From Brachypterus glaber (Eukaryota > Arthropoda > Insecta > Coleoptera > Kateretidae): a stretch of 64,000 nt of DNA. The position numbers and the translations under genes were made by a program. Below the pieces are notes generated by a model, which worked only from the letters and a program-made list of their open reading frames with translations, was not told the origin of the DNA and ran no database searches. Positions 14,970 to 60,041 of the stretch are shown here, piece after piece (position 1 is the first letter of the stretch; each line of letters begins with the position of its first letter). The DNA lies in NCBI GenBank assembly GCA_958510825.1, contig OY294047.1:49645365-49709364 (forward strand). The letters run 5' to 3'.

Positions 14970-15520
14970 GGCAGACTAACATCTCTACTCTAAATTTCTC
15001 TACTCCCTAACATCCCTACTCCATAACATCCCTACTCCACAACAATTCTACTCCGTGACATCTCTACTCCATAACATCTCTACTCCGTAACAACTCTACT
15101 CCACACTATATGCACTTTATTAGCCACTTAATAATAAATGAGCAGTTCAAAGAACAAAGAATCTTCTTCATCTAGATTATTTTATTTTTTTCCTAGAAAA
15201 CGTTTATCTTTAAATGTAAATCTAGAACAATCATAAATGAATTATTCTAAAAGCAACTATGACCGCGTACTCTTAACATGCACTAATATGTAAGTAATTA
15301 ATAAACTGAATTTATTTTTGACAGTGACTTAGCATGACAAATATTCTTTTGAGTTAAGACAAGTGGCTAATCGGGTGTCTATAGTGTGGAGTAGAGTTGT
15401 TACGGAGTAGAGATGTTATGGAGTAGAGATGTTACGGAGTAGAGTTGTTGTGGAGTAGGGATGTTATGGAGTAGGGATGTTAGGGAGTAAAGAAATTTAG
15501 AGTAGAGATGTTAGTCTGCC
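14970..15520. mobile_element. Fold-back element with 15-bp tandem repeats in its arms and an 8-bp target duplication
   Basis: TTTGAGCT at 14962-14969 and 15521-15528 flanks a 551-bp element starting GGCAGACTAACATC and ending in its complement. Each ~145-bp arm consists of about nine imperfect 15-bp units (consensus CTACTCCRTAACATC). The 8-bp duplication fits hAT-like transposases (family knowledge), while the tandem-array arms recall Foldback elements. Confidence 0.88.
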
Positions 15521-19365: not shown

Positions 19366-20210
19366 CTAGATGAAACGTTTCAAGCACCCTGTCAAAACAT
19401 CGGCACTATTGGGAAAGCTAATAAAATGCTATTAGAACAGGGTATCATAACATAATTAAAATTTTACTACTACTCCTCACTGCACAAACTAACTTGTATA
19501 ATATTTATATTAAACTTTAGCTTTTCTTGTACACTTAATATATAATTAAAATTAATAATAAAAATATGATTTAACTTGGATGCAAGTTGAACTTATTAAT
19601 TACAATTTTTGATTGATTTTAAAAACAAATGATTGGAAACTTTAAATTTGTACACTAGAGCCATCTAGTTTGCAAATTTCAAACTAGGTGTTTTGTTTGA
19701 TTTTAAATTCTGTATCTTTAAAACATTATATTCTAGCAAAAAACTGTGTATAACATTTTTTATAGGGCCTAAAAAGAGCTTTTATATAAAATATAATTTT
19801 TTGAAATCGGGTTATAAATATGTGAGATATGCTAAAAAAACCTTTTACTGCTTTAAACGCCAATATCTCGAAAACAATGCGTTTTAGGAAAACGTTGTTT
19901 ACAACATTTTTTGACCAATTTAAAATTATCTTTTATATAAGTGCTAAATTAAACAAATACAATAATAATTGCCTTAATTATAAACAAAAAACTAAACTAA
20001 AAATAGGAGTTTTACCCTATTTTTACCCCCTTACCCCCAATCGTTTACCCCCAAAATGTAATCAGCTCTTTGGAATACGCAAAAATTTTTTTACTGATTT
20101 TCGAATGGTCTAAAACGTCGAGAAATGTGAAAAAAACGTGGTCAAAGATTTTGACTTTTCGGCGAAGATTTCAATACATCGGCACTCTTAGTAGCACTAA
20201 GTGCCGATTT
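19366..20210 (+). mobile_element. Family E element, copy 1 (with a ~240-bp insertion)
   Basis: Starts CTAGATGAAACGTTTCAAGC, then ACATCGGCACTATT, is interrupted at about 19414-19650, and resumes at ACACTAGAGCCATCTAG. It ends GCACTAAGTGCCGAT. The motif ACATCGGCACT is near both ends in inverted orientation. Confidence 0.8.
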
Positions 20211-21937
20211 AATATATTAAAAGAATAATTATAAATGGTGCGAGACAGCGCCTATAATATGTCACATTTTCTTGACAGATCAGACGAGAAATAAATTATC
20301 TCGTAGTTTAGTAGTTAAAACCCAGCTTTGATCTGTCCAAACAGATCCGTATATTTCCGTGAACATAACAGATCAAAAAGGATCAAAGAAAACCCTCCCC
20401 TTATTACGATATGCATTTCATTCATTCGGTTTCCACGAAGTTTTCCACTGATGCAAAATGGGGAGGCCTGTAATTTTCTCGATTAAGGCAAAACGGGATA
20501 TTTTGAAAAAAATATAGCCGTTATACCTGTTTCGACTGTTGCTAACGAAACAGTATATTATTTACAAAAAAAAAAAAAATAAACAAAACTTAAAAAAAAG
20601 AAAAGTTAACTCATTAGAGATTGAATCAATAACACAGGCCCACCAAAAAAAAATATTTTTGTGAGTCTTGGATTCCAACATGATATTCCTATGTATTTTT
20701 TCCCGCTTTAACTGAATCCGCAATCCGTTTGACGACTACACGTCAGGATTTTGACATAACCTCCGAGTTTTACCACAAATAACACAGGTCTACAAATACC
20801 GGGTCATATAAGTTGTTGAAAAGCTGAGTGTCATTTCCAAAGTAGTTTTCTGGGTAGAATCCGAATCCGGGGTCAGAATTGACCCATCACGTCAGGATTT
20901 TGAGATATTTGAGGTTATGCACCCGAGAAACGGCGTTTTTTCCTACTTTTGAGGTTATGTACAGGGTGTAAAAATTTTGTGTGGTCTGTCTCTCCAGTTA
21001 CATAATTTAGTACCACTCTTACCCTTTAATTTAAGACTTCAAGAGATCAATTACGATTTTTTTTCGCACTAAGTGCCGATTTAATATATTAAAAGAATAA
21101 TTATAAATGGTGCGAGACAGCGCCTATAATATGTCACATTTTCTTGACAGATCAGACGAGAAATAAATTATCTCGTAGTTTAGTAGTTAAAACCCAGCTT
21201 TGATCTGTCCAAACAGATCCGTATATTTCCGTGAACATAACAGATCAAAAAGGATCAAAGAAAACCCTCCCCTTATTACGATATGCATTTCATTCATTCG
21301 GTTTCCACGAAGTTTTCCACTGATGCAAAATGGGGAGGCCTGTAATTTTCTCGATTAAGGCAAAACGGGATATTTTGAAAAAAATATAGCCGTTATACCT
21401 GTTTCGACTGTTGCTAACGAAACAGTATATTATTTACAAAAAAAAAAAAAATAAACAAAACTTAAAAAAAAGAAAAGTTAACTCATTAGAGATTGAATCA
21501 ATAACACAGGCCCACCAAAAAAAAATATTTTTGTGAGTCTTGGATTCCAACATGATATTCCTATGTATTTTTTCCCGCTTTAACTGAATCCGCAATCCGT
21601 TTGACGACTACACGTCAGGATTTTGACATAACCTCCGAGTTTTACCACAAATAACACAGGTCTACAAATACCGGGTCATATAAGTTGTTGAAAAGCTGAG
21701 TGTCATTTCCAAAGTAGTTTTCTGGGTAGAATCCGAATCCGGGGTCAGAATTGACCCATCACGTCAGGATTTTGAGATATTTGAGGTTATGCACCCGAGA
21801 AACGGCGTTTTTTCCTACTTTTGAGGTTATGTACAGGGTGTAAAAATTTTGTGTGGTCTGTCTCTCCAGTTACATAATTTAGTACCACTCTTACCCTTTA
21901 ATTTAAGACTTCAAGAGATCAATTACGATTTTTTTTC
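20194..21937 (+). repeat. Two 872-bp tandem units
   Basis: The sequence from 20194 recurs at 21066. By eye the two units look almost identical throughout. Each unit begins with the last 17 bases of family E (GCACTAAGTGCCGAT), so the duplication arose after that element inserted. Confidence 0.92.
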
Positions 21938-22917
21938 GCAAAGTTATGGCTATTCGAAGTTACGAAATATATCCGTTCGACGTCATTAGCATTTTCATTA
22001 AGCCTTTGAGACAATAATTTTTTACTGTGTAATTTCTCTTGAAAATTTTCACTTTGAGGTCGCTGAGAACGAATATAAAGTCGGAAAATTAAAATTTGCA
22101 TTTCCAATATGGCGTATTCAAAATGGCGGATTAAGATTTGCAAAAAACATATATATATAATTATATAATTGTTGGCGATAAAAAAAAAAATAAACAAAAC
22201 TTAAAAAAAAGAAAAGTTAACTCATTAGAGATTGAATCAATAACACAGGCCCACCAAAAAAAAATATTTTTGTGAGTCTTGGATTCCAACATGATATTCC
22301 TATGTATTTTTTCCCGCTTTAACTGAATCCGCAATCCGTTTGACGACTACACGTCAGGATTTTGACATAACCTCCGAGTTTTACCACAAATAACACAGGT
22401 CTACAAATACCGGGTCATATAAGTTGTTGAAAAGCTGAGTGTCATTTCCAAAGTAGTTTTCTGGGTAGAATCCGAATCCGGGGTCAGAATTGACCCATCA
22501 CGTCAGGATTTTGAGATATTTGAGGTTATGCACCCGAGAAACGGCGTTTTTTCCTACTTTTGAGGTTATGTACAGGGTGTAAAAATTTTGTGTGGTCTGT
22601 CTCTCCAGTTACATAATTTAGTACCACTCTTACCCTTTAATTTAAGACTTCAAGAGATCAATTACGATTTTTTTTCGCAAAGTTATGGCTATTCGAAGTT
22701 ACGAAATATATCCGTTCGACGTCATTAGCATTTTCATTAAGCCTTTGAGACAATAATTTTTTACTGTGTAATTTCTCTTGAAAATTTTCACTTTGAGGTC
22801 GCTGAGAACGAATATAAAGTCGGAAAATTAAAATTTGCATTTCCAATATGGCGTATTCAAAATGGCGGATTAAGATTTGCAAAAAACATATATATATAAT
22901 TATATAATTGTTGGCGA
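21439..22917 (+). repeat. Overlapping 739-bp tandem units
   Basis: From the poly(A) at about 21439 the sequence recurs 739 bases later (for example AAGTTATGG at 21941 and 22680, and GGCGATAAAAA near 22175 and 22914). The second unit ends near 22917. The two tandem periods overlap, which implies two successive events. Confidence 0.9.
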
Positions 22918-23330
22918 TAAAAATTCAGTCAACATCACTCTTCGTTTACGTTGGTCGGCTACTCAAAGGCTTAATGCAAATTCTAATGACGTCGAAGGGA
23001 TATATTTCGTAATTTCGAATAGCCATAACTTTGCGAAAAAAATCGTAATTGATCTCTTGAACTCTTAAATTAAAGGGTAAGAGTGGTACTAAATGATTTA
23101 ACTGGAGAGACAGACCACAAAATTTTTTTGCACCCTGTACATAACCTTAAATGTAGGAAAAACGCCGTTTTTCGGGTACATAACCTTAAATATCTCAAAA
23201 TCCTGACGTGATAGGCCAGTTCTGACCGGATTCGGATTCTACGCAGTAAATTACTTCGGATATGACCCTTAGCTTTTCAAAAACTAAGCCATGTTGACCT
23301 GTGTAATCAAGGCCGAGAACTTTAGGTAAA
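22365..23330. repeat. Palindromic repeat whose left arm is amplified
   Basis: The stretch 22962-23330 is a diverged reverse complement of 22365-22745. Examples are AATAGCCATAACTTTGCGAA against TTCGCAAAGTTATGGC, and CTGACGTGATAGGCC against ACCCATCACGTCAGG. The centre is near 22900. The tandem units above are extra copies of the left arm only. Confidence 0.8.
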
Positions 23331-27059: not shown

Positions 27060-28612
27060 CGCTTTTCTAGTTCTTGGGCTTTGAAGAGTTAATAATAGGG
27101 TAGCTAATGAAGATTTTCCATCAGAATAAGTCTAAGAGCCCCAAAGGCCTCGGACCCTCTTTCTGCTTTCTAATAACTGACACACATCAAACGACTTGAT
27201 CTTAAAATATAATTATAAACATGAACCACACTTTTGACAAGCGTTTCGCACAAGATTTTTCTACAAAAGGAAGGATGATAAACTTGTTGTAAATATATGG
27301 AGAATTTACAGCGATTCAGGGGCACACAGTGGGGCAATCCAGAAGGATAAAATTCTAAAAAATTAGTTTAGAATAATCTGTTTGGAACGAGAAAAATAGT
27401 TTTAAAAATCTAAAGCTGAAGGAGGTCAGTTTATAAGGAGTTAAAACATGTAAATTTTAATAAAAAAAATCTAAAAAATAATGCCAAGAATAAATATACT
27501 GCTGATAACTTAAAAAATAATTGGAAAAATTTAAAGCTTAGGGGAGTCTATTTTAGGGGGTTTTAATATTGTAAATTTCAGTAAAAAATCTAAAATATGT
27601 ATATTTTTTTAAATTTTGACCGAAAATTCTTAACCTATGACCCCAAAAACTCCCCTGTACCGATTTTGAGTCGGCATGGTTCATAAATGCCAGAATTCTC
27701 CATATTGGCGCCGCCATTTAGAATTTGTTCAATTTTGACCAAAAAATTGTAATATTTGACCCTGAAAACCCCCGATACCGATTTTGGGCCGATGTTTGTT
27801 TGTTTAACCTCGTACTATTCTACTTAATTAAACATCCCCTAAGTCCAGGACTTGTGAAGGCTAGTAGTAGAGGGAACCACCGGCTTATACTGACTTTCGA
27901 ACCAGTTTTTATAGGGAGTGTCCGCTTTACTTATGCCTTCGTCAAATTTCAATTATTAGTTAACTGAAAAAGGCAAATCGGCGCCAGTGAAAATCGAAGT
28001 AGTAGACTTCTCATGTACAGACACGGTAGACCACTACATCAATCCTCCCACAACACCAATCCTCCCACAAATGTAAAAGCGTTACTTTAAAATCTACATT
28101 TTGACGCTAATATAAGTTTTCGCTCGATCACGCACCTATAATAAAAGCGTGTAAAAATAAAATGTAACTTTATGCGGCTAAATTTGGTATGGTTTTATAG
28201 AGTTTTAAATAAGCTATCTGAGGGTTAAAAATTTATTAGCGGAATCAACAGGAATGAAACTGTAGATCAAGGAAAATAAAATATTTTGATAAAGGAGGGT
28301 ATCGCATTTTGGGCTGAATCGCCTGCAATGATAATACTTAACATGCTTATAGATACATAAAAAATAAATACTTAGCCAAAATTTCAGCCCTTTTTACATC
28401 CCGGAACGTACTTTAATTAATTATTTTTAATTAAGAATTTTGACATATGTCAATGTACGATTTGGCAACATTGCACGAAACTTCAAGTGTTAAATGTCAT
28501 CTCGTCAAAATAAAAATAACTTTGCACATTAACTACTACAGTGGGCCAAAAGAAAGGGCCTGTGTCGTGTTCACTGCTCTTCCTTATAATATTAAAATAT
28601 TTTAGTAAGGAC
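27060..28612. other. AT-rich DNA with weak tandem structure
   Basis: Apart from the diverged tandem repeat listed separately, I see nothing. Confidence 0.5.
27615..27790 (+). repeat. Diverged tandem repeat, ~117-bp period
   Basis: TTTTGACC-x-AAAA ... GTACCGATTTTGAG-TCGGCATGG near 27615-27680 resembles ATACCGATTTTGGGCCGATG near 27733-27795. Weaker related text lies at 27420-27600. Confidence 0.5.
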
Positions 28613-28956
28613 AGAAATTTTTAATTTTAAATAAAATTATAAAAATATTAATTTATTATTCTATCAATCTATTTTCTAATCATCGTACAGAGTAATATTG
28701 GTAGACTGACAGTTTCGGGCTGCTGGCCCTCTTCAGTACCAAGAGTCAACTCTGCACGCTGATTAAGAAAACGTTTTTAGACTTTACTCGCAAAAGGAAT
28801 ATAGCCATTAGATTGATGTAGACTTGTGCGCCATCTATTTCTAGATTTAGACAACTACTCATACCTCTCCTAATCTGGAGACTTTGAATGGTAGCAAGTT
28901 GAAGACTTGTGTGTCTCAAGCACATAGTACCACTAACGGGTGGTTAGACGTAAAAT
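28613..28956 (-). mobile_element. Hammerhead-bearing repeat unit 1 (retrozyme/Penelope-pLTR-like)
   Basis: TAGTAAGGACAGAAATTTTT at 28613 recurs at 28957. The unit (~344 bp) carries a complete hammerhead on the minus strand and a unique stretch (28743-28956). No long ORF is present. Confidence 0.65.
28698..28742 (-). ncRNA. Type I hammerhead self-cleaving ribozyme
   Basis: Minus strand, in order: stem I strand TTGGTA; core CTGAAGA; stem II GGGC-CAGCA-GCCC; core GAA; stem III A-CT-GTC-AG-T; C17; then stem I partner TACCAA. All invariant hammerhead core residues are present (C3 U4 G5 A6 N G8 A9, G12 A13 A14, the A15.1-U16.1 pair, H17=C). Stem I is 6 bp, stem II 4 bp and stem III 3 bp with a 3-base loop. 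Cleavage would fall between the complements of 28704 and 28703. Stem III of this size is typical of minimal hammerheads in Penelope-like elements and metazoan retrozymes (family knowledge). Confidence 0.85.
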
Positions 28957-29165
28957 TAGTAAGGACAGAAATTTTTAATTTTAAACAAAATTATAAAAAT
29001 ATTAATTTATTATTCCATCAATCTATATTCTAATCTATTTTCTAATCATCTAATTGGTAGACTGACAGTTTCGGGCTGCTGGCCCTCTTCAGCCCGAAAC
29101 TGTCAGTCTACCAATATCACTCTGTACGATGATTAGAAAATAGATTGATGGAATAATAAATTAAA
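28957..29165 (-). mobile_element. Hammerhead unit 2, rearranged, with an inverted third piece
   Basis: 28957-29092 repeats the start of unit 1, up to and including the CTGAAGA core at 29086-29092 on the minus strand. At 29093 the sequence flips: 29093-29165 is an inverted copy (CCCGAAACTGTCAGTC...). The stem I 5' strand next to the core is replaced, so this ribozyme should be impaired. Confidence 0.75.
29054..29092 (-). ncRNA. Hammerhead core, broken stem I
   Basis: It has the same CTGAAGA / stem II / GAAA / stem III / GTC as the 28698 ribozyme, but the base before CTGAAGA belongs to the inverted piece (...TTTCGGG) and cannot pair with TACCAA nearby. Confidence 0.6.
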
Positions 29166-29811
29166 ATATTTTGTTGTGTTTCATTAGTTTTTACGGATTT
29201 AATATACTATAACTCAGTAGTTACTCTACAAAAATCAAACAATTTTTTAAAAGTTACTAATTTCATGATGAAAAAACTTAAATTATACTTTTAACTAAAT
29301 TTAATTGACATAAATAAAAATTTACAAAAAAAAACTTCAAAAATCACATTTTTTAGCACAAAAAATTAAAGAATCAAAACCTTAAAAAAATTGTTTAAAA
29401 AATTAAAAAATATACAGTCCAATAGAGAATTTTATTTGCTTTAAAATGATGTATCACACGGCCCCCCCTTTCCATTTAAAAAAAAACTCCCCCCCGTGCC
29501 CTCCTGCCCACATTTTGAGAGCTAAAAGTATCAAATATATGCTAAAAGATAGCTTAAGTTGTCTAATTTAAGATGGTTTTCGCAGAACTTGATTATCTCT
29601 TTCAGTTTTCGAGAAAATCGCTGGGTAAATAGAGTTGGGACACCCTGTATAAAGTTGCTTAGGGTTTCATATATACAACATCTTTTATATATTTAATACG
29701 GTACCAAATTCTCAGTTATTTTATGTGTAAAATTTTACAATATTTTCTCAGTGCAGACGTTAGTTGAAAATGAACTGTTGAATTTTAAAGTAATTGAAGC
29801 CAAAATTAAGT

Positions 29812-33909: not shown

Positions 33910-34535
33910 CTAGATGAAACGTTGCAAGCACCCTGTCAAAACATCGGCACTATTATACACTAGAGCCATCTAGTTTTCAAATTTCAAACTAGGTGTTTTG
34001 TTTGATTTTAAATTCTGTATCTTTAAAACATTATATTCTAGCAAAAAACTGTATATAACATTTTTTATAGGGCTTAAAAAGAGCTTTTATTTAAAATATA
34101 ATTTTTTGAAATCGGCTTATAAATATGTGAGATATGCTAAAAAAACCTTTTACTGCTTTAAACGCCAATATCTCGAAAACAATGCGTTTTAAGAAAACGC
34201 TGTTTATAACATTTTTTGACCAATTTAAAATTATCTTTTATATAAGTGCTAAATTAACCAAATACAATAATAACTGCCTTAATTATAAACAAAAAACGCT
34301 AAAAATAGGAGTTGTACCCTATTTGTACCCCCTTACCCCCAATCGTTTACCCCCAAAATCTAATTAGCTCTTCGGAATACGATAAGAAACAATATGCAAA
34401 AAAGCGCAAGACAGACCCAGACCCTTTTTTACTGGTCTAAAACTTCGAGAAATGTAAAAAAAAACGTGGTCAAAGATTTTGACTTTTCGGCGAAGATAAT
34501 ACGTCGGCACTCTTAGTAGCACTAAGTGCCGATGT
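33910..34535 (+). mobile_element. Family E element, copy 2
   Basis: Uninterrupted copy: CTAGATGAAACGTTGCAAGC ... GTAGCACTAAGTGCCGATGT. A CCCCCTTACCCCCAATCG stretch is shared with copies 1 and 3. Confidence 0.82.
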
Positions 34536-36420: not shown

Positions 36421-37077
36421 AATTAAGTAACTCTTAATTATACTACAGTTTTTAATTCTCTAATACCGCACTATTTTTGGAGTGTATGATAAATTCAACA
36501 AAATTTGACACCTAAATTAAATGCAAAGTTCTTACTAATTAAATTAAAGCTTCCTCGTATCCTTTTAATTAACGTTTTTAAGGTCAAGCATAAAGACTAA
36601 AATGACTGTGGTTATAGGTCGTTTAAATTCCTAGACGTATAATAAAACAACCCATTTGTAAAACATTTTTACTATAACAGAGGTATACACTGACATACCA
36701 AACAAGAAAGCCATATCTAAGGACATTCCACCTTTAAACCTCAGTTTTCCCAGTAAACATATTTTTTCTACGACCTAGTTAGTAGGTATTGCTTTTTTTC
36801 CACCCGTTGCCATGACAGCAGTCGGAAAATGACAGTCAGCTGATCTTACATATCTGCCGTCAGAAAACAAGTGAACGTCTAGAGCTTTTTTTACACGGCT
36901 CCGCCTTGTAAAAAAGAAACCGCCCTCTGCACTGAAAACTAGGTTTGCGTACTCGGTGCCTAAAATACTATAGTGTCTTGACAATAACAACCTAAAAGAA
37001 GCTTTTTTATGACTTTTTTTAATAAATGAAAGGGCCATAGCGTAAGAGCACAAGCATATGCTTGGTGGAAGCTAAAC
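36421..37077. other. No gene recognised
   Basis: The minus-strand 92-codon frame at 36775-37053 has no motif. A small hairpin, CTTTTTTTACACGGCTCC...TTGTAAAAAAG, lies near 36886-36918. Confidence 0.45.
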
Positions 37078-37138
37078 TAGTAGTAGTAGTAGTAGCAGAA
37101 GTGGTAGTAGTAGTAGTAGTAGTTGTTGTAGTAGTAGT
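37078..37138 (+). repeat. (TAG)n microsatellite, left flank of the R1-like element
   Basis: Imperfect TAG/GTA repeats with a GTTGTTG interruption near 37122-37128. This is the left copy of the presumed duplicated target. Confidence 0.9.
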
Positions 37139-38653
37139 AATCCCACGGCATACAGACCACTCTGCCTGCTAAACACAATGGGAAAATTATACGAATCACT
37201 AATCCGGAAAAGACTTGAGGATGAAATTGATAGGTCGGGAGGCCTATCGGACAGACAATTTGGGTTTAGAAAAGGAAGGTCTACGATCCAAGCAGTAGAG
37301 CTAGTAAAAAACACTAAAAGAAAAAGGGGAAAGTGGTGTGTTCTGGTCACACTGGACGTTAAAAATGCCTTTAATACAGCGTCCTGGTCAAAAATTTTAA
37401 GAGAGCTTCAAAAAAGGAGAATACCTAAATACCTAATAAATATTATAAGAAACTACTTTAAAAATAGAAACATTGAGGTCAACAAGGGGGAAAAATTTAA
37501 AGTGACTACCGGAGTTCCACAGGGCTCAGTCTTGGGACCAACTCTATGGAACATCTTATACGATGGTGTTCTCTGTTTAGACTTGCCAGAAGGGGTTGAA
37601 ATAATAGGCTATGCAGATGATTTGGCTATAGTCATAATTGCGGATAATTTGGAGGACCTTATCTTTAGGACAAACGAAGCGCTGAGGAGGATTAGCGTAT
37701 GGATGAACTATTATTCTTTAAAACTGGCTCCTGATAAGACGGAAGCGGTGATTTTAAAAGGACCAAGAAACAGAAGCCAGGTAAAGTTTATGCTAGGGGA
37801 AAGGGAAATCCAACCGACCAAACACATTCGATATCTAGGAATAGTGATGAGTGAAAATGGCTCTTTTAGGGAGCACATTAAACGGGCTGCCAAAAAAGCA
37901 GACGAAAGAGTTAGAATGCTAACAGGGATAATGCCAAATATAGGGGGGCCGAGAAGCAAGAAACGAGAAATGCTATGTGGTGTGGTGCACTCCATAATAC
38001 TGTATGGAGCACCCATATGGTATGAAACCCTAAAGTTTAAGTGGTATAAAGAAAAACTGCAAAGCGTACAAAGGAAAATGCTGATAAGGATGACCAGCGC
38101 ATATAGGACGGTATCTGCCGAGGCCTTGCAGGTAGTATCCGGTATAGTGCCCATAGAACTTATGGTGGAAGAGCGCAGGCAACTCTATGAGCGAGCAGAT
38201 GGACATAGGGCCGAGATCAAAGAGGAGATAAGAAGATACACACTAGAAAGATGGCAGAATTTGTGGGAGAATAATGACAGAGTAGGAGCATGGACTAAAA
38301 CCCTGATACCAAGAGTGAAGGAGTGGACTAACTGCGGTCACCGCAGTGTTGATTATTTCATGACCCAGGTAATGACTGGACATGGCTCTTTTAGAAGTTA
38401 TACAAAACGTATAAAGAAAACCCCGGATGATAAGTGTATATACTGTGGAAAAATAGACACAGCAGAACACACATTCTTTGAATGCACGCGATGGAGTGAA
38501 TATAGAGAAGAGGCCCAAGCAGATACTGGAATACTAACCACGGAAAACCTAGTGACGTTTATGGTTCAAAATAATAAAAACTGGCACCTAGTACAAAGCC
38601 TTATGAAGAAAATAATGGAAGAAAAGGAAAGAGAGGAGAGACAAAATAGGTAA
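37139..38653 (+). CDS. R1-like reverse transcriptase, 5' truncated, otherwise open
   Basis: The frame is open from AAT 37139 to TAG 38651-38653, with the first ATG at 37178 (491 codons from there). Counted from that Met: fingers region GFRKGRSTIQAV at about 29-40; catalytic Asp60 in VTLDVKNAFN; GVPQGSVLGP at 112-121; YADD at 145-148; thumb and C-terminal domain; and a C-terminal zinc knuckle C420-x2-C423-x7-H431-x4-C436 (CIYCGKIDTAEHTFFEC), typical of the R1 clade. It is a polymerase for target-primed reverse transcription. The catalytic core has no stop or frameshift, so the insertion is probably young, but it lacks the endonuclease domain and cannot move by itself. Confidence 0.88.
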   Translation, partial: NPTAYRPLCLLNTMGKLYESLIRKRLEDEIDRSGGLSDRQFGFRKGRSTIQAVELVKNTKRKRGKWCVLVTLDVKNAFNTASWSKILRELQKRRIPKYLINIIRNYFKNRNIEVNKGEKFKVTTGVPQGSVLGPTLWNILYDGVLCLDLPEGVEIIGYADDLAIVIIADNLEDLIFRTNEALRRISVWMNYYSLKLAPDKTEAVILKGPRNRSQVKFMLGEREIQPTKHIRYLGIVMSENGSFREHIKRAAKKADERVRMLTGIMPNIGGPRSKKREMLCGVVHSIILYGAPIWYETLKFKWYKEKLQSVQRKMLIRMTSAYRTVSAEALQVVSGIVPIELMVEERRQLYERADGHRAEIKEEIRRYTLERWQNLWENNDRVGAWTKTLIPRVKEWTNCGHRSVDYFMTQVMTGHGSFRSYTKRIKKTPDDKCIYCGKIDTAEHTFFECTRWSEYREEAQADTGILTTENLVTFMVQNNKNWHLVQSLMKKIMEEKEREERQNR

Positions 38654-38840: not shown

Positions 38841-39049
38841 TTCAAGTGGGGAGTCAAGCCTGGCAATTGCAGTCTTTGGTACTTTTTGCCTTACTCCGGA
38901 GATACTATTTTTCTAGTATAACCAGGATTTTCGTTGATATACCCCCCGGGACCTACCGTTTAACGCGGAATCCGAACTTCAATTGTCGGCATTTTTAGGC
39001 ATTTGATCCTCTCGGTTGGCTGCATTGAATGTGACCGGAAATTCGCACT
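38841..39049. other. DNA between the two LINEs
   Basis: Nothing recognised. It may include decayed upstream LINE sequence, but no frame supports this. Confidence 0.4.
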
Positions 39050-40375
39050 TTTACTGCGTCGTTTAAGCATCGCCCTATTACAATACTTTCCAATTTCTCC
39101 AAAGTGTTTGAAATGATTATCTACAACTACATATACAAGTCTGTGAAGAACCTAATTTCTATAAACCAACACGGCTTTATGACTAAACGGTCTACTGTCA
39201 CTAATTTAACTGAATTTTCTAATTTTGTTGCTCACACTGTTGATAACAAGGGTCAAGCCGATGTAATCTATACTGATTTTATGAAGGCGTTCGACCGAAT
39301 CGATCATTATATTATTATTAAAAAACTTAAACAGAGATATGGTTTTAGTAGCAGACTAGTTAAACTTTTTTTGTCATATTTGTTAGATAGATATCTTTAC
39401 GTCTTTTATAATGGATTTGGTTCTGATCTATTTCTAGCAATGTCAGGGGTACCTCAAGGTTCTAACCTTGGACCTTTGCTATTTTTATTATTCATAGATG
39501 ATCTTAGTGAGTTAATTGAATGCCTGCATTTATTTTTTGCTGACGATTTGAAACTATTCATGCAAATAATTTGCATCAATGACTGCATTAGATTACAGAG
39601 GGTCTTGGATGCACTGCAACAATGGTGCGAATATAACTGTCTCAATTTAAATGTATCTAAATGTAAAATTATCTCCTTCACGCGTAAAAAAAACCCAATA
39701 CTTTATAATTACTCAATAAGTTCTTTCTCCTTGGAGAGAGTATATTCCATTAAAGATTTGGGTGTCACATTTTCTAGTGATTTTTTATTCAGAGAACATT
39801 TAGATAGTATTGTATCAGCCTCATTAAAAATGTATGGTTTTATAATAAGAAATTGTAGTAAATTTACCAGTGTACTTGCTTTAAAGACCCTTTACAACTC
39901 TTTTGTTCGCTCTAGACTGGAATATTGTTGTACCATTTGGAATCCGTTTTATGAAGTTCACAGACAACAGGTAGAGAAAGTGCAAAAAAAGTTTCTTAAG
40001 TGTTTATATTTTAAAGTATTTGGTATATATCCAGCCAGAGGTTATGATTATGACGTCCTACTGTCTCAATTTGAGTATCAATCCCTAGAACTCCGCAGAA
40101 CAATAACCAGTATTAAAATGCTATGTTAAGTATTGAATGGTAGAATGGACTCACCATTTATTTTATCAAAGCTAAATTTTTGCGTTCCAGCTAATTGTAC
40201 AAGAACTTCTACCACTTTTTATAATCAAGTTGCCAGAACGAATACTCTACGCACTGAACCAATTTTCAATATGATGTTTTGTTATAATAGATATTGTAAG
40301 AGTTGCGATATCCACTTTGATTCAGTGAGTAGAATAATTAATTGTATAGTTCTAGAGTATTGGCCAAAATGTTGA
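39050..40375 (+). pseudogene. Jockey/CR1-like reverse transcriptase with one in-frame stop
   Basis: From GTG 39104 the frame reads HGFMTKRSTVTNL, catalytic YTDFMKAFD (Asp58), SGVPQGSNLGPLLF at 114-127 and FADD at 145-148, then the LN-x2-KCK thumb motif, KDLGV and YNSFVRSRLEYC. TAA at 40127-40129 interrupts the frame after KMLC. The same frame then continues as VLNGRMDSPFILSKLNF to a stop at 40375. The continuing similarity to LINE C-termini shows that the TAA is a later nonsense change in a dead copy. Family placement (Jockey or CR1) needs a tree. Confidence 0.8.
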
Positions 40376-48319: not shown

Positions 48320-48362
48320 TCCCTGAAGATGTCTCTAGTAGTAAGAGACGAAACGTCGGAAA
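48320..48362 (+). ncRNA. Degenerate hammerhead-like motif
   Basis: CTGAAGA, an extra T, stem GTCTC...GAGAC, then GAAACGTC. Stem I is only about 3 bp (TCC/GGA), and ACGT leaves no loop for stem III. It is probably a relic or a related motif in a retroelement 3' end. An (ATT)n run lies at about 48072-48088. Confidence 0.4.
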
Positions 48363-51567: not shown

Positions 51568-54500
51568 GTAATTGTAGTTGTAAGTGTAGCTTTAAGTACA
51601 CACACATAAAAATAAGATTTTACTACTACTTTATTGTTTGAGACTGAAGTTTTTTTGCTGAAACGGAGTCGAGACACAACTGATTGATATATCAGGAAAT
51701 AAACACAACTTCTCAAAGTCTTCTCCACAATTTTTTTATTATTATTATATTTGGCTTTGGCTACATGTTTCGTCCCTAATTCAAGTGGGACATCTTCAGG
51801 CCGTATAGGTTCTAAAGAAACTGTCTAGAAATGTTACATCTATTGTAGATTATAGAAAAACGTTCACAAAACAATACTAGACGTCATTAACATTAATAAA
51901 TAACAATTAAATACCATTTTTTAAAACAAATTATTACATTTTTCTGTCAAATATCATATTGATATTGATTGATATATTAATAATTTTAATTTTCGCAGTT
52001 CAGCGGAATTTAATTTAACGCACAAATAAGCAAAATACTCTTAAATCTTTGACACAACCTATACATTGCAGAAGTTATATTGCCAAATAAAGTTGTACAT
52101 TGAAAGAAACGAAATAAAAAAGTCTAAAGATATCCTTTATTTTTAGATTCTATGAGGTGCTTCTGTCAAAAATGCATTTTTTGTTTAAAGAAAACGTACC
52201 TTTTACAATTTACTACTATAGTTATATAGCTATACTTTACAATACACTACTTTTTTGTAATTTGGCTGATCCTATTAGTTTTAAATAGGGGAAGTCGGGG
52301 TTAACTGGGCCGCTTTTTTTCATATCTAGTTTTTGAAAAACCTGTAAACAATTTTCAAATATTTTCTGTAGCAAAAGGTAGATTAATACTACAGTTAGAA
52401 CATATTAATACTTCAGACAAATATTATTTATATAAAAAAAGTTATTAAAGATAAACCAATTGACCCCGCTGGACCAGTTAACCCCATAGGGCAGGGTTAA
52501 CTGGACCACTACTCAGAGTTAACTGGTCCACTAATTATTGTGAATAAAAACGATTTGAAATAAAATAAAATTTAATTCTAACATAAAAATAGACAACATA
52601 TTATGTTAAATATTATATATATATATATCTGAGGGTTAACTGGTCCGGGGTTAACTGGACATGGCCCAGTTAACCCCGAACTAATTAATATTGACATAAG
52701 TGGTCCAGTTAACCCCGAACCAGTTAACCCTGAGTGACACCACTGAATAAAATCATAAAATTTTATTACTTAATAAGATATTAGAAGGCGGAAATTATGC
52801 AGAATAATTAACAAAATACTCAGTATATTAGGTAAAATATTAGTCTAGATCCTCCTATTAATAAAAAAGTATTAATTAAAAAATAAAAGTTAAGGTAAAT
52901 ACCCACTTTTCATCGACAAAAATTTACTTTCTTTACTACAACTTACACGTAGACAATACGGTCCGTCATAATACTTTTTGTTGTTGATAAAATCCAGGTG
53001 GACCAGTTAACACTGTGGCCCAGTTAACCCTGACTTCCCCTATAATCTCTTTTTTAGTGAAAATTCAATTTATCTAAAAAAATTGGGTATTTTATTTGCT
53101 TTCATGATTTTTTTTAGGAATGGAAGAGGCGCTGGAATGGCTAAAAGAAAGTTTATCCGACGCTATAGAAGACTTCGACGACGGAGATAATGAAGGTAGG
53201 TAGTTATTATTAATTTTCTGCGCGGATTCGAAAAATTATTTTTTCTGGACTGCCTTTAGGTCAGATACCGTCAAACGGGGTAAAGTTATTTAGTTTTAGC
53301 AGCTCGGAAGAAAAATATCCTTGTCAATTGTTTTTTTGATAAAAATCAAAAGGTCCAAAACAGGATTAAAATCGATAAAACCGCCAGAAATAAGAAAAAC
53401 AACTCATAGGGACTTCTTCGGGCGCTGGAGCTCGTTTAGGATGTGTGATGTGTCATTAGTAAAACTATAATTTCTTATCACGAGAATCACTACACAGATT
53501 TTTAAAAACAAAAAAATGTTGAATAAAAAAAAATGAAACTGGAATTAAAAGACCTTTCAAATGAGGTATCACTTATATGCCCTTATTTTAATTTATAATT
53601 AAGTCAAGTCAATTTGGGGACCCTAAGGATTCCAAAATCGCGTTTGTTCAAAAATGAACCCTAGGTTAATTTTTAATTAAAGTCAGTTTTTTCACTTTTT
53701 CTTAGTTTTAATGTATTTTTCTCCGTGTTTCAGGTATTCCACTGGTACCTATTATGGAATATTCCGTATCTGCAATGGAAAATAGCGACTTTCAGCGTAT
53801 GCTAAAGGGTTTTAGCATTACCGAGCCGTTTGACGAACAGGTACGTATTTTAGTTTTAAAAATTATTTTAAAATACTTTTTTAGAAAAAAATAATACCCT
53901 TTTTGACCCCACCTTAATTTTTATCAAAAACAGTTCTAGCTTAGAACTTAGTATGAAAAAATTATTTTCCAAATTTAAAGACTTTAGCGTTCTCGAGTTA
54001 TAGTGGTCACAATTTTTTTCAGTCCGACTGACTGACAGATTTTTTTTTGGAGAAATAATCCTTTTTGAATATAAAACATCGAGAATTGTAGAAAAAAACA
54101 ATAAAAATAACTATTTTCACAAACTCAGGACTTTCCTAGGGGAAAGTTAATCTTAAGTATATACTCTAAATTCTTGTTTCAGAAGCAATGGTTTCGATCC
54201 ATCAGTTCAAATCCATATCTGTTACGGTTTTATACTGAAAAAGGTTTTATGCCATAACTTTAAATATTTAATTAAAAAAAAACATGGATTTTGTGGCTTT
54301 ATATTTACTACCATTTAGAACATGAACCTATCAAAGTTTGCAAAAAGTAAAACTTAAACAACTCTTTAAAATTTTATGATTTATTTTGGTCATGTATTAT
54401 ACAGTGCGTGCATTAAGTCTGGAATCACCCGAATAACTTTTTAGTTACAAGTAAAATACAAAAATCCTCAGACAGGTCGATTTATATTTTTAATTCTGCA

Positions 54501-57500: not shown

Positions 57501-60041
57501 TCCTGCTGTATAAAGCAGTATAAAGTTGTAGCCCTAGGGCCCTTGTTATGTTAATGTGTGAGACCCTTTTGCACCTATGTTTTTTAGTCTAAAATAATTG
57601 AATACCGTTAAACGAAAGGGAACCAAGCGACATATCTAACGAAATGTTCTTAGGCATGGGAATATTTTGTGCTTAAAGAACCTATTCCCATGCCTAACAA
57701 AATTTCGTTAAAAATTTCGCTTGGTTTCTTTTCGTTTAACGGCATCCAATTGTCCTCTGAAATTTATTTATAATCAAAACGAATTTTTGGTGCTTTTATT
57801 AAAAAGAAAGGAATTATTACATCGGCACTTACTGCTACTAAGAGTGCCGATGTATTTAAATCTTCGCCGAAAAGTCAAAATCTTTGACCACGTTTTTTTT
57901 CACATTTCTCGACGTTTTAGACCATTCTGAGTAGAAATCAGTAAAAAAAAATTTGCGTCCGTCTGTCTGTCTGTCTGTCTGTCTGTCTGGGTGTAAACTC
58001 TCTAACTCCATTTCTACATGAGATATTGACTTGCGGTTTTTTGTATATTGTTTCTTATCGTATTCCGAAGAGCTGATTAGATTTTGGGGTTAAACGATTG
58101 GGGTAAGGGGGTAAAAATAGGGTAAAACTCCTATTTTTAGCGTTTTTTGTTTATAATTAAGGCAATTATTATTGTATTTGGTTAATTTAACACTTATATA
58201 AAAGATAATTTTAAATTGCTCAAAAAATGTTATAAACAACGTTTTCCTAAAACGCATTGTTTTCGAGATATTGGCGTTTAAAGCAGTAAAAGGTTTTTTT
58301 AGCATATCTCACATATTTATAACCCGATTTCAAAGAATTATATTTTAAATAAAAGCTCTTTTTAAGCCCTATAAAAAATGTCATATACAGTTTTTTGCTA
58401 GAATATAATATTTTAAAGATACAGAATTTAAAATCAAACAAAACACCTAGTTTGAAATTTGCAAACTAGATGGCTCTAGTGTACAATAGTGCCGATGTTT
58501 TGACAGGGTGCTTGCAACGTTTCATCTAGTTTATATATAAATACCTATTGATAAAATCAAATGCACAGAAAACAGTAAATATTACCATTTCATCCTTTTT
58601 GGGAATCATCAGCACTCTGTATCCTGTATGTTGTTAATATTTATTTTTGTTACAGGAAGCATATTGGAGAATCCCAGGTAGCATCACTGTGGACAAACTT
58701 AAAAATTACTGCGAGATTATAAAAAAAGGCCTCGAAAAAACCCTAGAAGTTCCCTCAGAGAACCCAGAGCCAAGCGAAGAAATTCTAGAAAATAAAAGCG
58801 AAAACGAAGAAGAATCAGCACCAGCCGAATCTTCGGATGATGAAGATGTATTTAGTAAAATTCGAACCATTGTCAAAGAAAATAAAATCAAGGAAAAAAT
58901 CAAAGACAGCATAAGAGCATCTAAAAGTATGTCCTTATCTATTCTTATGAATCCAGATGGTGGCGAAAATGAAGATAGTGATGATAATCAAGAATCTGAT
59001 GATCACCAAGAACCTGGACCATCAGTTCCAAAAAATAAGCCCAAAAACAAGACCAGAATTGTAGATAGTGACGACGAAAGTAATGATAAATTCAGCAAAA
59101 AAGAAAATAGTAGCGTTGGTCAAAGAAAGATTGTAAGAATTGAAGATAGTGATGACAGTAGTGATGTTTCACAGCTTATTTCACAACAATCTAATAATGA
59201 TCAAGAAGGTTTAAGAAGTCAATCAAAAAATAAAAGATTTAGTCAATTTGAAGACAGTGACGAGAGCAACAATGTTCCTGAAAGTCAAAAATCTTCAAAC
59301 CCAAATAAAAAACGAAAAATCATTCAGATTGTAGATAGTGATAACAGTAATGATGTCCCTGAGCGTATTTCACAAGAATCATCCAACAGCCAAGATATGT
59401 TGAGTAGTCAAGATATAAACAAAAGGTTTAACCAATTTGAAGATAGTGATTTAAGCAACGATGTTCCCGAGAGCCAAAAATCTTCAACTTCAAAACAAAA
59501 GAAAAAAAAGAAAGTTAATCAAATTGAAGATAGTGATAACAGTGATGATGTTCCCGAGCGTATTTCACAAGAATCATCCAACAGCCAAGATATTTTGAGT
59601 AGTCAAGCTATAAACAAAAGATTTAACCAATTTGAAGATAGTGATTTAGGCAGTGATATTCTTAAAAGACAGAATAATTTAACTATGAAACCAAACAAAA
59701 AGAAGAAAATTAACCAGATTGAAGATAGCGATGAAGAAAATTCTGATAATCCTGAAGTAAGTCAAGGAAATAAAGATATTGGAGATATGCAAAATAAAAA
59801 AGACAAACCTAATCAACATTTAGAAAATGAAAGTGATTTGGAGGATGATTTTGCTACCGAAAAATCTTCTAAGAGAAAGAGTAATGTTTTAGACAGCGAT
59901 AGCGAAAGTGAAAAGGAAAATTCTAGTGTTAACGTCACTAAAAATGAAACAGGAGATAAAAGAATGAGATCCGGCTCTAGTTCTGATTCTGAGAAACAAA
60001 AGGCTAAGAAAAGTAGGGTTATTGATAGTGATGAAAATTAG
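51349..60041 (+). CDS. timeout: TIMELESS/timeout-family protein, C-terminal part (four exons, 5' exons outside view)
   Basis: Four exons (51349-51567, 53118-53195, 53734-53840, 58656-60041) join in one open frame through GT-AG introns with matching phases (1, 1 and 0) and end at TAG 60039-60041. They give about 595 C-terminal residues. In order these are a Ser/Asp-rich, basic linker; a short helix with GMEEALEWLKESL; the block IPLVPIMEYSVSAMEN; an AYWRIPGSIT motif; and a long acidic tail of repeated DSD units. The IPLVP...WRIP arrangement matches the C-terminal region of animal TIMELESS (Drosophila timeout), the region that binds PARP1 in vertebrates. TIMELESS is a nuclear replication-fork protection factor that partners TIPIN and supports S-phase checkpoint signalling and cohesion; that role is family knowledge. 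The N-terminal TIMELESS domain is not in view. I prefer timeout to the clock gene timeless because this C-terminal block and the DSD tail are typical of the TIMELESS/timeout lineage. Confidence 0.85.
51759..51802 (-). ncRNA. Hammerhead-like motif in a timeout intron
   Basis: Minus strand: GGC-CTGAAGA-T-GTCCC...GGGAC-GAAACATGTA-GCC. The core and stem II are present with a bulged T at position 10.1. Stem I is GGC/GCC, 3 bp. (ATT)n lies beside it at 51737-51748. Confidence 0.45.
52288..53040. mobile_element. 753-bp TIR element with GGTTAACTGG subrepeats, in a timeout intron
   Basis: GGGGAAGTCGGGGTTAACTG ... CAGTTAACCCTGACTTCCCC, with TA at 52286-52287 and 53041-53042. The motif (A/G)GTTAACTGG(T/A/G)CC occurs about ten times inside, in both orientations, clustered at both ends and the middle. 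No ORF is present, so it is non-autonomous. Confidence 0.85.
53118..53195 (+). CDS. timeout: timeout exon n-2
   Basis: This 78-base exon lies between TTTTTTTTTAG (ending 53117) and the donor GTAGGT at 53196. The phase 1 entry completes a Gly codon. The reading is G-MEEALEWLKESLSDAIED-FDDGDNE, an amphipathic acidic helix followed by an acidic stretch. The frame continues without interruption into the next exon. Confidence 0.82.
53734..53840 (+). CDS. timeout: timeout exon n-1
   Basis: The exon follows the acceptor CTCCGTGTTTCAG (ending 53733) and stops at CAG|GTACGT (53841). The phase 1 entry completes Gly, giving GIPLVPIMEYSVSAMEN, then SDFQRMLKGFSITEPFDEQ. The IPLVP and AMEN residues are the strongest family match. 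The exon leaves in phase 0 before a 4.8-kb intron. Confidence 0.85.
54402..54802. mobile_element. 401-bp TIR element, TA-flanked, in a timeout intron
   Basis: CAGTGCGTGCATTAAGTCTG ... CAGACTTAATGCACGCACTG. The arms extend ~80 bp (to AAAATCCTCAGACAGGTCGA and its complement). TA lies at 54400-54401 and 54803-54804. Confidence 0.87.
55071..55672 (-). mobile_element. Family B element, copy 2, in a timeout intron
   Basis: About 600 bp, highly similar to 41652-42256 along its length. It again has TAA (TTA at 55673-55675 on plus) next to TAGTTATTTATATACC, and the same GC-looped hairpin. Confidence 0.8.
56421..57080 (+). mobile_element. Family C element, copy 2, in a timeout intron
   Basis: It starts TAGTTATTTATAATACAAGG and carries a head hairpin (GGGCAAAAAGTTAAGTTTTT near 56440 with AAATTTAACTTTTTGCCC near 56500-56518). 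It is the uninterrupted version of the family A target site. Confidence 0.78.
57596..57752. mobile_element. ~157-bp palindromic element in a timeout intron
   Basis: AATTGAATACCGTTAAACG ... CGTTTAACGGCATCCAATT. The arms run almost to the centre near 57675 (AGGCATGGGAATA/TATTCCCATGCCT). Confidence 0.82.
57819..58529 (-). mobile_element. Family E element, copy 3, in a timeout intron
   Basis: Minus-strand copy. It opens with the small palindrome ACATCGGCACT...AGAGTGCCGATGT (57819-57853), includes a (GTCT)n tract at 57959-57988, and ends ...CGTTTCATCTAG. Confidence 0.82.
57959..57988 (+). repeat. (GTCT)n microsatellite
   Basis: About seven GTCT units inside the family E copy. Copies 1 and 2 lack this expansion. 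Confidence 0.9.
58656..60041 (+). CDS. timeout: timeout terminal exon, WRIP motif and acidic DSD-repeat tail
   Basis: The acceptor TTTTTGTTACAG ends at 58655 and the frame runs 461 codons to TAG. It opens with EAYWRIPGSITVDKLKNYCE, the end of the conserved C-terminal region. The remainder is disordered, acidic and Ser/Lys/Asn-rich. DSD occurs about ten times, usually preceded by I/V/F plus E/V (for example QIEDSD, QFEDSD, QIVDSD) and followed by acidic or Ser residues, which suits casein kinase 2 phosphorylation (inference). Between 59139 and about 59717 the protein is a three-unit repeat with periods of 63, 65 and 65 codons. Basic clusters (KKKKKK, KKRK) alternate with the DSD blocks. Confidence 0.85.
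   Translation, partial: EAYWRIPGSITVDKLKNYCEIIKKGLEKTLEVPSENPEPSEEILENKSENEEESAPAESSDDEDVFSKIRTIVKENKIKEKIKDSIRASKSMSLSILMNPDGGENEDSDDNQESDDHQEPGPSVPKNKPKNKTRIVDSDDESNDKFSKKENSSVGQRKIVRIEDSDDSSDVSQLISQQSNNDQEGLRSQSKNKRFSQFEDSDESNNVPESQKSSNPNKKRKIIQIVDSDNSNDVPERISQESSNSQDMLSSQDINKRFNQFEDSDLSNDVPESQKSSTSKQKKKKKVNQIEDSDNSDDVPERISQESSNSQDILSSQAINKRFNQFEDSDLGSDILKRQNNLTMKPNKKKKINQIEDSDEENSDNPEVSQGNKDIGDMQNKKDKPNQHLENESDLEDDFATEKSSKRKSNVLDSDSESEKENSSVNVTKNETGDKRMRSGSSSDSEKQKAKKSRVIDSDEN
59139..59717 (+). repeat. In-frame tandem repeat coding for the DSD tail
   Basis: Codons for I(E/V)DSD start at 59139, 59328, 59523 and 59718, so the spacing is 189, 195 and 195 bases. Each unit has two halves: an I(E/V)DSD half with DVPERISQESSNSQD in the two best-matched copies, and a QFEDSD half after SSQ-x-INKRF. 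The nucleotide match between units two and three is high, which suggests expansion by recent unequal exchange. Confidence 0.85.

Follow-up and report, generated by a model that had tools for sequence, protein, structure and literature searches.

Metazoan retrozymes have units of about 170-400 nt, a GC content below 45-50% and type I hammerheads. Their duplications, when present, exceed 4 bp, and they occur in insects among other phyla (Cervera and de la Pena 2020, PMC7229834; published statements are given throughout as they stand in the parts of the cited papers available to us). Penelope-like elements (PLEs) are candidate helpers of retrozymes (PMC7229834; PMC7761336), and the two were reported to co-occur (PMC7229834). 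PLE hammerheads are described in reviews as minimal variants without helix III or loop-loop interactions (PMC7761336). Dimeric constructs of axolotl retrozymes cleave much better than monomers (PMC7229834), and newt hammerhead motifs have been described as dimeric. In Aedes aegypti, where loop III is palindromic, a dimer was proposed, and the RNA was tested without cleavage (Perreault et al. 2011, PMC3088659). For the Dolichopoda repeat pDo500, both a single and a double hammerhead were proposed (PMC2837043).

The DNA analysed here is one stretch of 64 kb (the window). At 28698-28742 its minus strand reads TTGGTA CTGAAGA GGGC-CAGCA-GCCC GAAA CTGTCAG TC TACCAA. When the letters were re-read directly, the core was as a preliminary description had written it. 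At the level of sequence the hammerhead is real, and the invariant core CUGANGA...GAAA...UH, with stem II and an open stem I, places it in type I. Stem III, which had been given as 3 bp, is 2 bp plus the A15.1-U16.1 pair, with a loop of 3 nt. The core, the stems, the duplication, the inversion and the length of the element are read directly from the DNA, and their coordinates are collected in Table 1.

Table 1. Features of the retrozyme-like insertion, in window coordinates.
Feature	Position	Strand	Remark
Retrozyme-like insertion, 556 bp	28604-29159	- (sense)	Edges given by the 13-bp duplication
Left target-site duplication ATTAAAATATTTT	28591-28603		Exact 13-mer
Right target-site duplication ATTAAAATATTTT	29160-29172		Exact 13-mer
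Element 3' part, 100 nt downstream of the predicted cut	28604-28703	-	Ends in TGTCCTTACT
Helix Ib, 3' strand ACTCTGTACG	28684-28693	-	
Loop 1, 3' side TATT	28694-28697	-	
Complete type I hammerhead	28698-28742	-	From sequence and descriptor
Hammerhead U16.1, C17	28705, 28704	-	Predicted cut 28704/28703
Hammerhead helix III CTGTCAG	28706-28712	-	
Hammerhead GAAA	28713-28716	-	
Hammerhead stem II	28726-28729/28717-28720	-	
Hammerhead CTGAAGA	28730-28736	-	
Hammerhead stem I	28737-28742/28698-28703	-	
Loop 1, 5' side TGACTC	28743-28748	-	
Helix Ib, 5' strand CGTGCAGAGT	28749-28758	-	
One full unit, 356 nt, 34.6% GC	28704-29059	-	Bounded by the two predicted cuts
Single-copy middle of the unit	28737-28957	-	No recognised gene
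Second core, same as the first	29060-29092	-	Without the 5' strand of stem I
Inverted copy (part of stem II, helix III, cleavage site, 3' flank)	29090-29159	+	5' inversion

We searched both strands of the 64 kb with a strict type I descriptor (CTGANGA; Watson-Crick pair 10.1/11.1; stem II of at least 3 bp; loop II of 3-20 nt; GAAA; stem III of at least 2 bp; UH; stem I of at least 5 bp). It matched at a single place, 28698-28742, in two parses, and 100 dinucleotide shuffles gave 0 matches. The loose pattern CTGANGA-N(8-30)-GAAA occurred 9 times (one overlapping pair included) against 2.2 expected. The preliminary description had also called for a covariance-model search, and at the Rfam gathering scores the outcome went against it. 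No match reached its gathering score anywhere in the 64-kb window, and 28001-29700 gave no hammerhead at E≤10. When 86 bases alone were used, the best of three matches was the RAGATH-1 hammerhead (RF03152), aligned over the core at 21.3 bits (gathering score 56.3, E 0.065), a score too low to be conspicuous in a search of the whole window.

The hammerhead had been called minimal. This was refuted by an internal loop of 6/4 nt in stem I, beyond which the stem is prolonged by a 10-bp helix (helix Ib) with one G-U pair. The 3' strand of helix Ib is retained in the inverted copy (29119-29128) and is absent from copy 2, the upstream copy of the repeat. In a test devised after the helix had been seen, 1037 of 200000 random anchors in the AT-rich window could be extended by 10 bp or more (loops of 0-6 nt, G-U pairs included), so that helix Ib alone is suggestive (0.5%) and not conclusive.

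The core is present twice. The cores at 28704-28736 and 29060-29092 are identical and 356 nt apart, and 40 of 40 bases are equal between 28697-28736 and 29053-29092. The repeat noted earlier at 28730 and 29086 was thus confirmed for the cores, but only one hammerhead is complete. In the upstream core CGGG precedes CTGAAGA at the position required for TTGGTA, which leaves it without the 5' strand of stem I. For the repeated TAGTAAGGACAG, the copy at 28957 was found as described, whereas the other starts at 28603 and not at 28613. The repeats are spaced by 354-356 nt. About 135 nt are present twice at 89% identity, and the 219-221 nt between the repeated parts are single copy. The claim of tandem units, each carrying a minimal hammerhead, is therefore wrong, and an arrangement of complete tandem hammerheads was rejected for the missing upstream stem I. 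The locus at 28604-29159 holds about 1.4 units and not two or more tandem units with a hammerhead in each. With its upstream core incomplete, the locus would not be expected to release a circle of 356 nt, and for the making of circles this copy is probably a dead end. Copies 1 and 2 agree at 77 of 80 bases over 28602-28681, and the stretch between this block and the matching core is poorly alignable. Substitutions and an indel block separate the two copies, which are therefore not necessarily successive laps on a single template.

Besides helix Ib, the preliminary description had overlooked the inverted arm at 29090-29159, where the upstream core adjoins an inverted copy of itself, and the 13-bp duplication at the edges. 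The chance of such a duplication was estimated in two tests, both devised after it had been seen: random pairs of 60-nt pieces shared a stretch of at least 13 nt in 5 of 4974 cases, a figure that the true chance should somewhat exceed because the flanks compared were 76 and 81 nt long, and an exact 13-mer at the boundary, with 13 offsets allowed, occurred in 7 of 286917 random boundary pairs. The first 5 bases of the right duplication, ATTAA, also prolong the homology of the inverted arm. At the other joint the inverted piece (29159-29093) and the core have CAG/CTG in common at 29090-29092, and microhomology is present at both joints (ATTAA; CTG).

The inverted arm is complementary to 29053-29078 at 26 of 26 bases. 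Over 29090-29160 it is identical to copy 1 at 69 of 71 bases. The arm is closer to copy 1 than to the present copy 2. This points to another unit as the site of priming, or to indels that copy 2 acquired later, although the three copies alone (copy 1, copy 2 and the inverted arm) cannot polarise the changes. Read along the minus strand, the order is inverted piece, core, 3' flank, single-copy middle, complete hammerhead and 100-nt 3' flank. The direct part measures 489 nt, or about 1.37 units, and runs across the uncut junction 28704/28703. The TGTCCTTACT end of the 3' part (28604-28703) is presumed to be the start of reverse transcription. Matches to the Rfam family mir-196 on the two strands of 29053-29115 (35.9 and 29.0 bits, gathering score 55.4) were rejected; we took them to reflect only the 26-bp hairpin that the inverted copy creates.

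The block had been said to contain no ORF. Stop-to-stop frames of 65 (minus), 60 (plus) and 57 (plus) amino acids are present, and the 65-aa frame at 28749-28943 (minus), the only one scanned, was rejected as a gene for want of a Pfam match. Within the 64-kb window there is no further copy of the element, the next best match being 51 nt at 74.5% (E 0.10). Exact and degenerate core patterns matched 0 stretches in the viral_contigs and 0 in the genome_contigs collections, and the plasmids collection gave no match; these collections are not of insects. A literature search, made by description rather than by sequence, found no paper on the 28604-29159 element, which says little.

Taken together, the retrozyme reading fits best. 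The locus resembles metazoan non-LTR retrozymes in its type I hammerhead, whose helix III is short and whose helix I contains an internal loop, an arrangement that is canonical for them. Its unit also lies within the range of about 170-400 nt, at low GC and non-coding (356 nt, 34.6% GC, longest frame 65 aa, no recognisable gene), and its duplication exceeds 4 bp. It differs from them in having 1.4 units, one complete hammerhead and a 5' inversion. The sequence at 28604-29159 is therefore probably a truncated member of the retrozymes. We consider it likely that it is a single, fairly young insertion of the metazoan non-LTR type, with its sense on the minus strand, made through the RNA/cDNA cycle proposed below. 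The earlier interpretation, which offered a retrozyme or a Penelope-like repeat, is best supported for the retrozyme and fails for the tandem units with minimal hammerheads.

A second reading is an internally deleted PLE, whose repeats would be pLTRs and whose 219-nt middle would be a remnant after loss of the ORF. Such a derivative is possible and, in our judgement, unlikely. Inverted terminal repeats, which count for it, were reportedly described in Drosophila Penelope by Evgen'ev in 1997. PLEs resemble the locus in their hammerheads and in their tandem or partial-tandem repeats with pLTRs, and they prefer AT-rich targets (PMC11167929), a weak point because the whole region is AT-rich. However, their hammerheads are minimal and accompanied by coding sequence, whereas the motif here possesses helix III, though a short one, and its stem I is extended and looped, so that by its sequence it appears not to share the PLE trait of a minimal hammerhead without helix III or loops. 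The ORF of the Anolis PLE starts at stem II (PMC11167929), where 28604-29159 has no ATG. Between the supposed pLTRs there is no frame for RT plus GIY-YIG, for which the 219-221-nt middle is too short, and the 65-aa frame of the middle, the sole frame scanned, has no Pfam match.

In a third reading the hammerhead belongs to an unrelated repeat and is dead or chance-like, its core being accidental or no longer functional. This would agree with the weak best Rfam score below gathering and with the predicted folds. For the monomer the minimum-free-energy fold is a misfold in which CUGA is paired with UCAG, and the active fold lies 6.3-6.4 kcal/mol higher (-14.6 against -8.2 kcal/mol for the 45-mer, -30.8 against -24.5 kcal/mol for the 79-mer). 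The helix III C-G pair had a computed probability of 3e-5. The CUGA/UCAG misfold recurs when the 356-nt circle is folded, and the circle is only mildly stable given its composition (66% paired; z -1.8 relative to 100 shuffles). In the model, then, the active fold is not the most stable monomer fold. We regard this preference of 6 kcal/mol as a warning and not as a disproof, because the hammerhead core is not represented in the energy model. Against a dead or accidental core stand the 0 descriptor matches in 100 shuffles, the looped helix Ib, and the two cores that are equal at 40 of 40 bases while the adjoining flank differs; we consider it highly improbable. Least probable of all is a satellite DNA fragment that carries a hammerhead, like the pDo500 family of the cave cricket, and owes its spread to unequal crossing over or DNA repair, since, although insect satellite DNA with a hammerhead has been published (PMC2837043), just 1.4 copies, an exact 13-bp duplication and an inverted end point to a retrotransposed insertion rather than an array.

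The helix III stretch ACUGUCAGU, which is part of the misfold, is near-palindromic. Two copies of it are predicted to pair over 8 bp with one U-U mismatch (-8.3 kcal/mol). The nearest-neighbour estimate for a dimer, made of two open active cores plus the ACUGUCAGU duplex, was -58.1 kcal/mol, a rough sum because a true dimer is not a nested structure. Two active monomers gave -49.0 kcal/mol with helix III formed (2 x -24.5) and -49.8 kcal/mol with helix III open (2 x -24.9), and two misfolded monomers gave -61.6 kcal/mol, still below the dimer estimate. The near-palindromic helix III in these models suggests dimeric cleavage. The motif is similar in this respect to the hammerheads of newt and axolotl satellites and of Aedes aegypti, with a helix III or loop III that is nearly self-complementary and suits a dimeric hammerhead. 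Unlike their palindromic loop III, the 8-bp dimer helix here contains the U-U mismatch. The locus is also similar to Dolichopoda pDo500 as an insect repeat with a hammerhead. However, pDo500 is a satellite of about 500 bp that makes up about 5% of one species' genome, compared with one insertion here, and its proposed double hammerhead has stems I and II in common, not stem III (PMC2837043).

The transcription, cleavage, circle, helper enzyme and cDNA direction that we infer for a retrozyme insertion would be as follows. Source copies elsewhere in the genome would be transcribed, and cleavage by the hammerheads would yield RNA units of 356 nt, a step that probably works best in dimers joined by the near-palindromic helix III. 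The units would be ligated into circles or would persist as uncut multimers. An enzyme supplied in trans, from a PLE or a LINE, would nick AT-rich DNA. The cDNA would begin about 100 nt downstream of the cleavage site, cover about 1.37 units, cross the intact junction and end just past stem II of the second hammerhead. A linear RNA cut at 28704/28703 would template only 100 nt, and therefore, if the cDNA began at the 3' end of the element, the template would have been a circle or an uncut multimer. The 5' end would be completed by twin priming from the other target strand (ATTAA) or by snap-back, in which the cDNA primes itself (CTG), and either may have produced the inverted arm. The outcome would be the inverted 70-nt fragment and the 13-bp target-site duplication. 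In LINE-1, target-primed reverse transcription with twin priming leaves the same marks, namely a 5' inversion, microhomology of the ATTAA type and a duplicated target. Whether the locus is a frozen record of integration in every one of these details, with a fixed internal start about 100 nt past the cut, 1.37 laps of a circular RNA, twin priming and an AT-rich target, is a tentative proposal that we hold to be less probable than not.

The window is AT-rich (23-37% GC in 2-kb steps) and has many dispersed repeats. A tRNA search of the window found none. In these respects the window has a eukaryotic look. Two stem-loops of the form CTGAAGATG-stem-CGAAAC lie at 48323-48354 (plus) and 51767-51799 (minus); they are hammerhead-like, except that an additional U precedes stem II and that stem III is largely or wholly missing, and from their letters they may be minimal PLE motifs. 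In Rfam the first reached no more than 13.1 bits (E 2.3) with Hammerhead_3, and the second drew no hammerhead at all. The presence of two PLE-like motifs in the window, by resemblance only, agrees with the reported co-occurrence of PLEs and retrozymes (PMC7229834).

Several other repeats were observed. A direct repeat at 20194-23285 has a spacing of 872 bp and 100% identity over 300-nt blocks. The spacing of a third copy (98%) is 739 bp, and 22962-23285 holds inverted fragments (87-95%); the whole is a tandem duplication of a repeat. Inverted 160-nt arms at 14970-15129 and 15361-15520 are 95% complementary and each contain about eight 16-bp tandem units, so that 14970-15520 resembles a terminal-inverted-repeat element whose arms carry repeats. 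A repeat of 345-448 nt has three dispersed copies (96-97%) at 33910-34357, 58082-58529 and 19648-19992. Repeat pairs were found at 41657-42260/55076-55676 (96-98%) and at 26342-27054/40637-41344 (88-92%).

Two long reverse-transcriptase frames lie in a row on the plus strand at 37076-38650 and 39035-40126 (Pfam RVT_1, E 2e-38 and 2.2e-28, respectively). The first had 1143 relatives at E≤1e-30 among 7962 scored candidates. Among the best 120 of these 1143, the first six with a named organism were beetles (five Callosobruchus and one Tribolium); wasps, psyllids, aphids, moths, flies and more beetles came lower among the matches listed, and some relatives were named R1-type elements. A beetle is thus the likely source of the window, short of proof because the gene is a mobile one. 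At 58638-60041 (plus), a frame of 467 aa is acidic and serine-rich and has an internal tandem repeat of 189-195 bp. The protein search with this frame gave no homologue at E≤0.001 among 7990 scored candidates, and the Pfam scan gave no match at E≤0.01.

The feature at 28604-29159 is real, interpretable and of a kind already known. Its value lies in the readable ends of the insertion and in a palindromic helix III that predicts dimer-dependent cleavage. How retrozymes return to DNA, and from where they obtain their reverse transcriptase, is open in the literature (Discussion of PMC7229834; PMC7761336, in the parts available). Ends of this type, with a start point, a length above one unit, microhomologies, a duplication and an inversion, turn it into a question that can be counted: do other copies in this genome begin at the same internal base, exceed one unit and have end signatures in common with PLE or LINE copies? 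If the proposed record is true, dimer-dependent cleavage together with the predicted misfold would keep single circles intact, and the locus would provide evidence at the DNA level that circles serve as templates when animal retrozymes integrate by target-primed reverse transcription.
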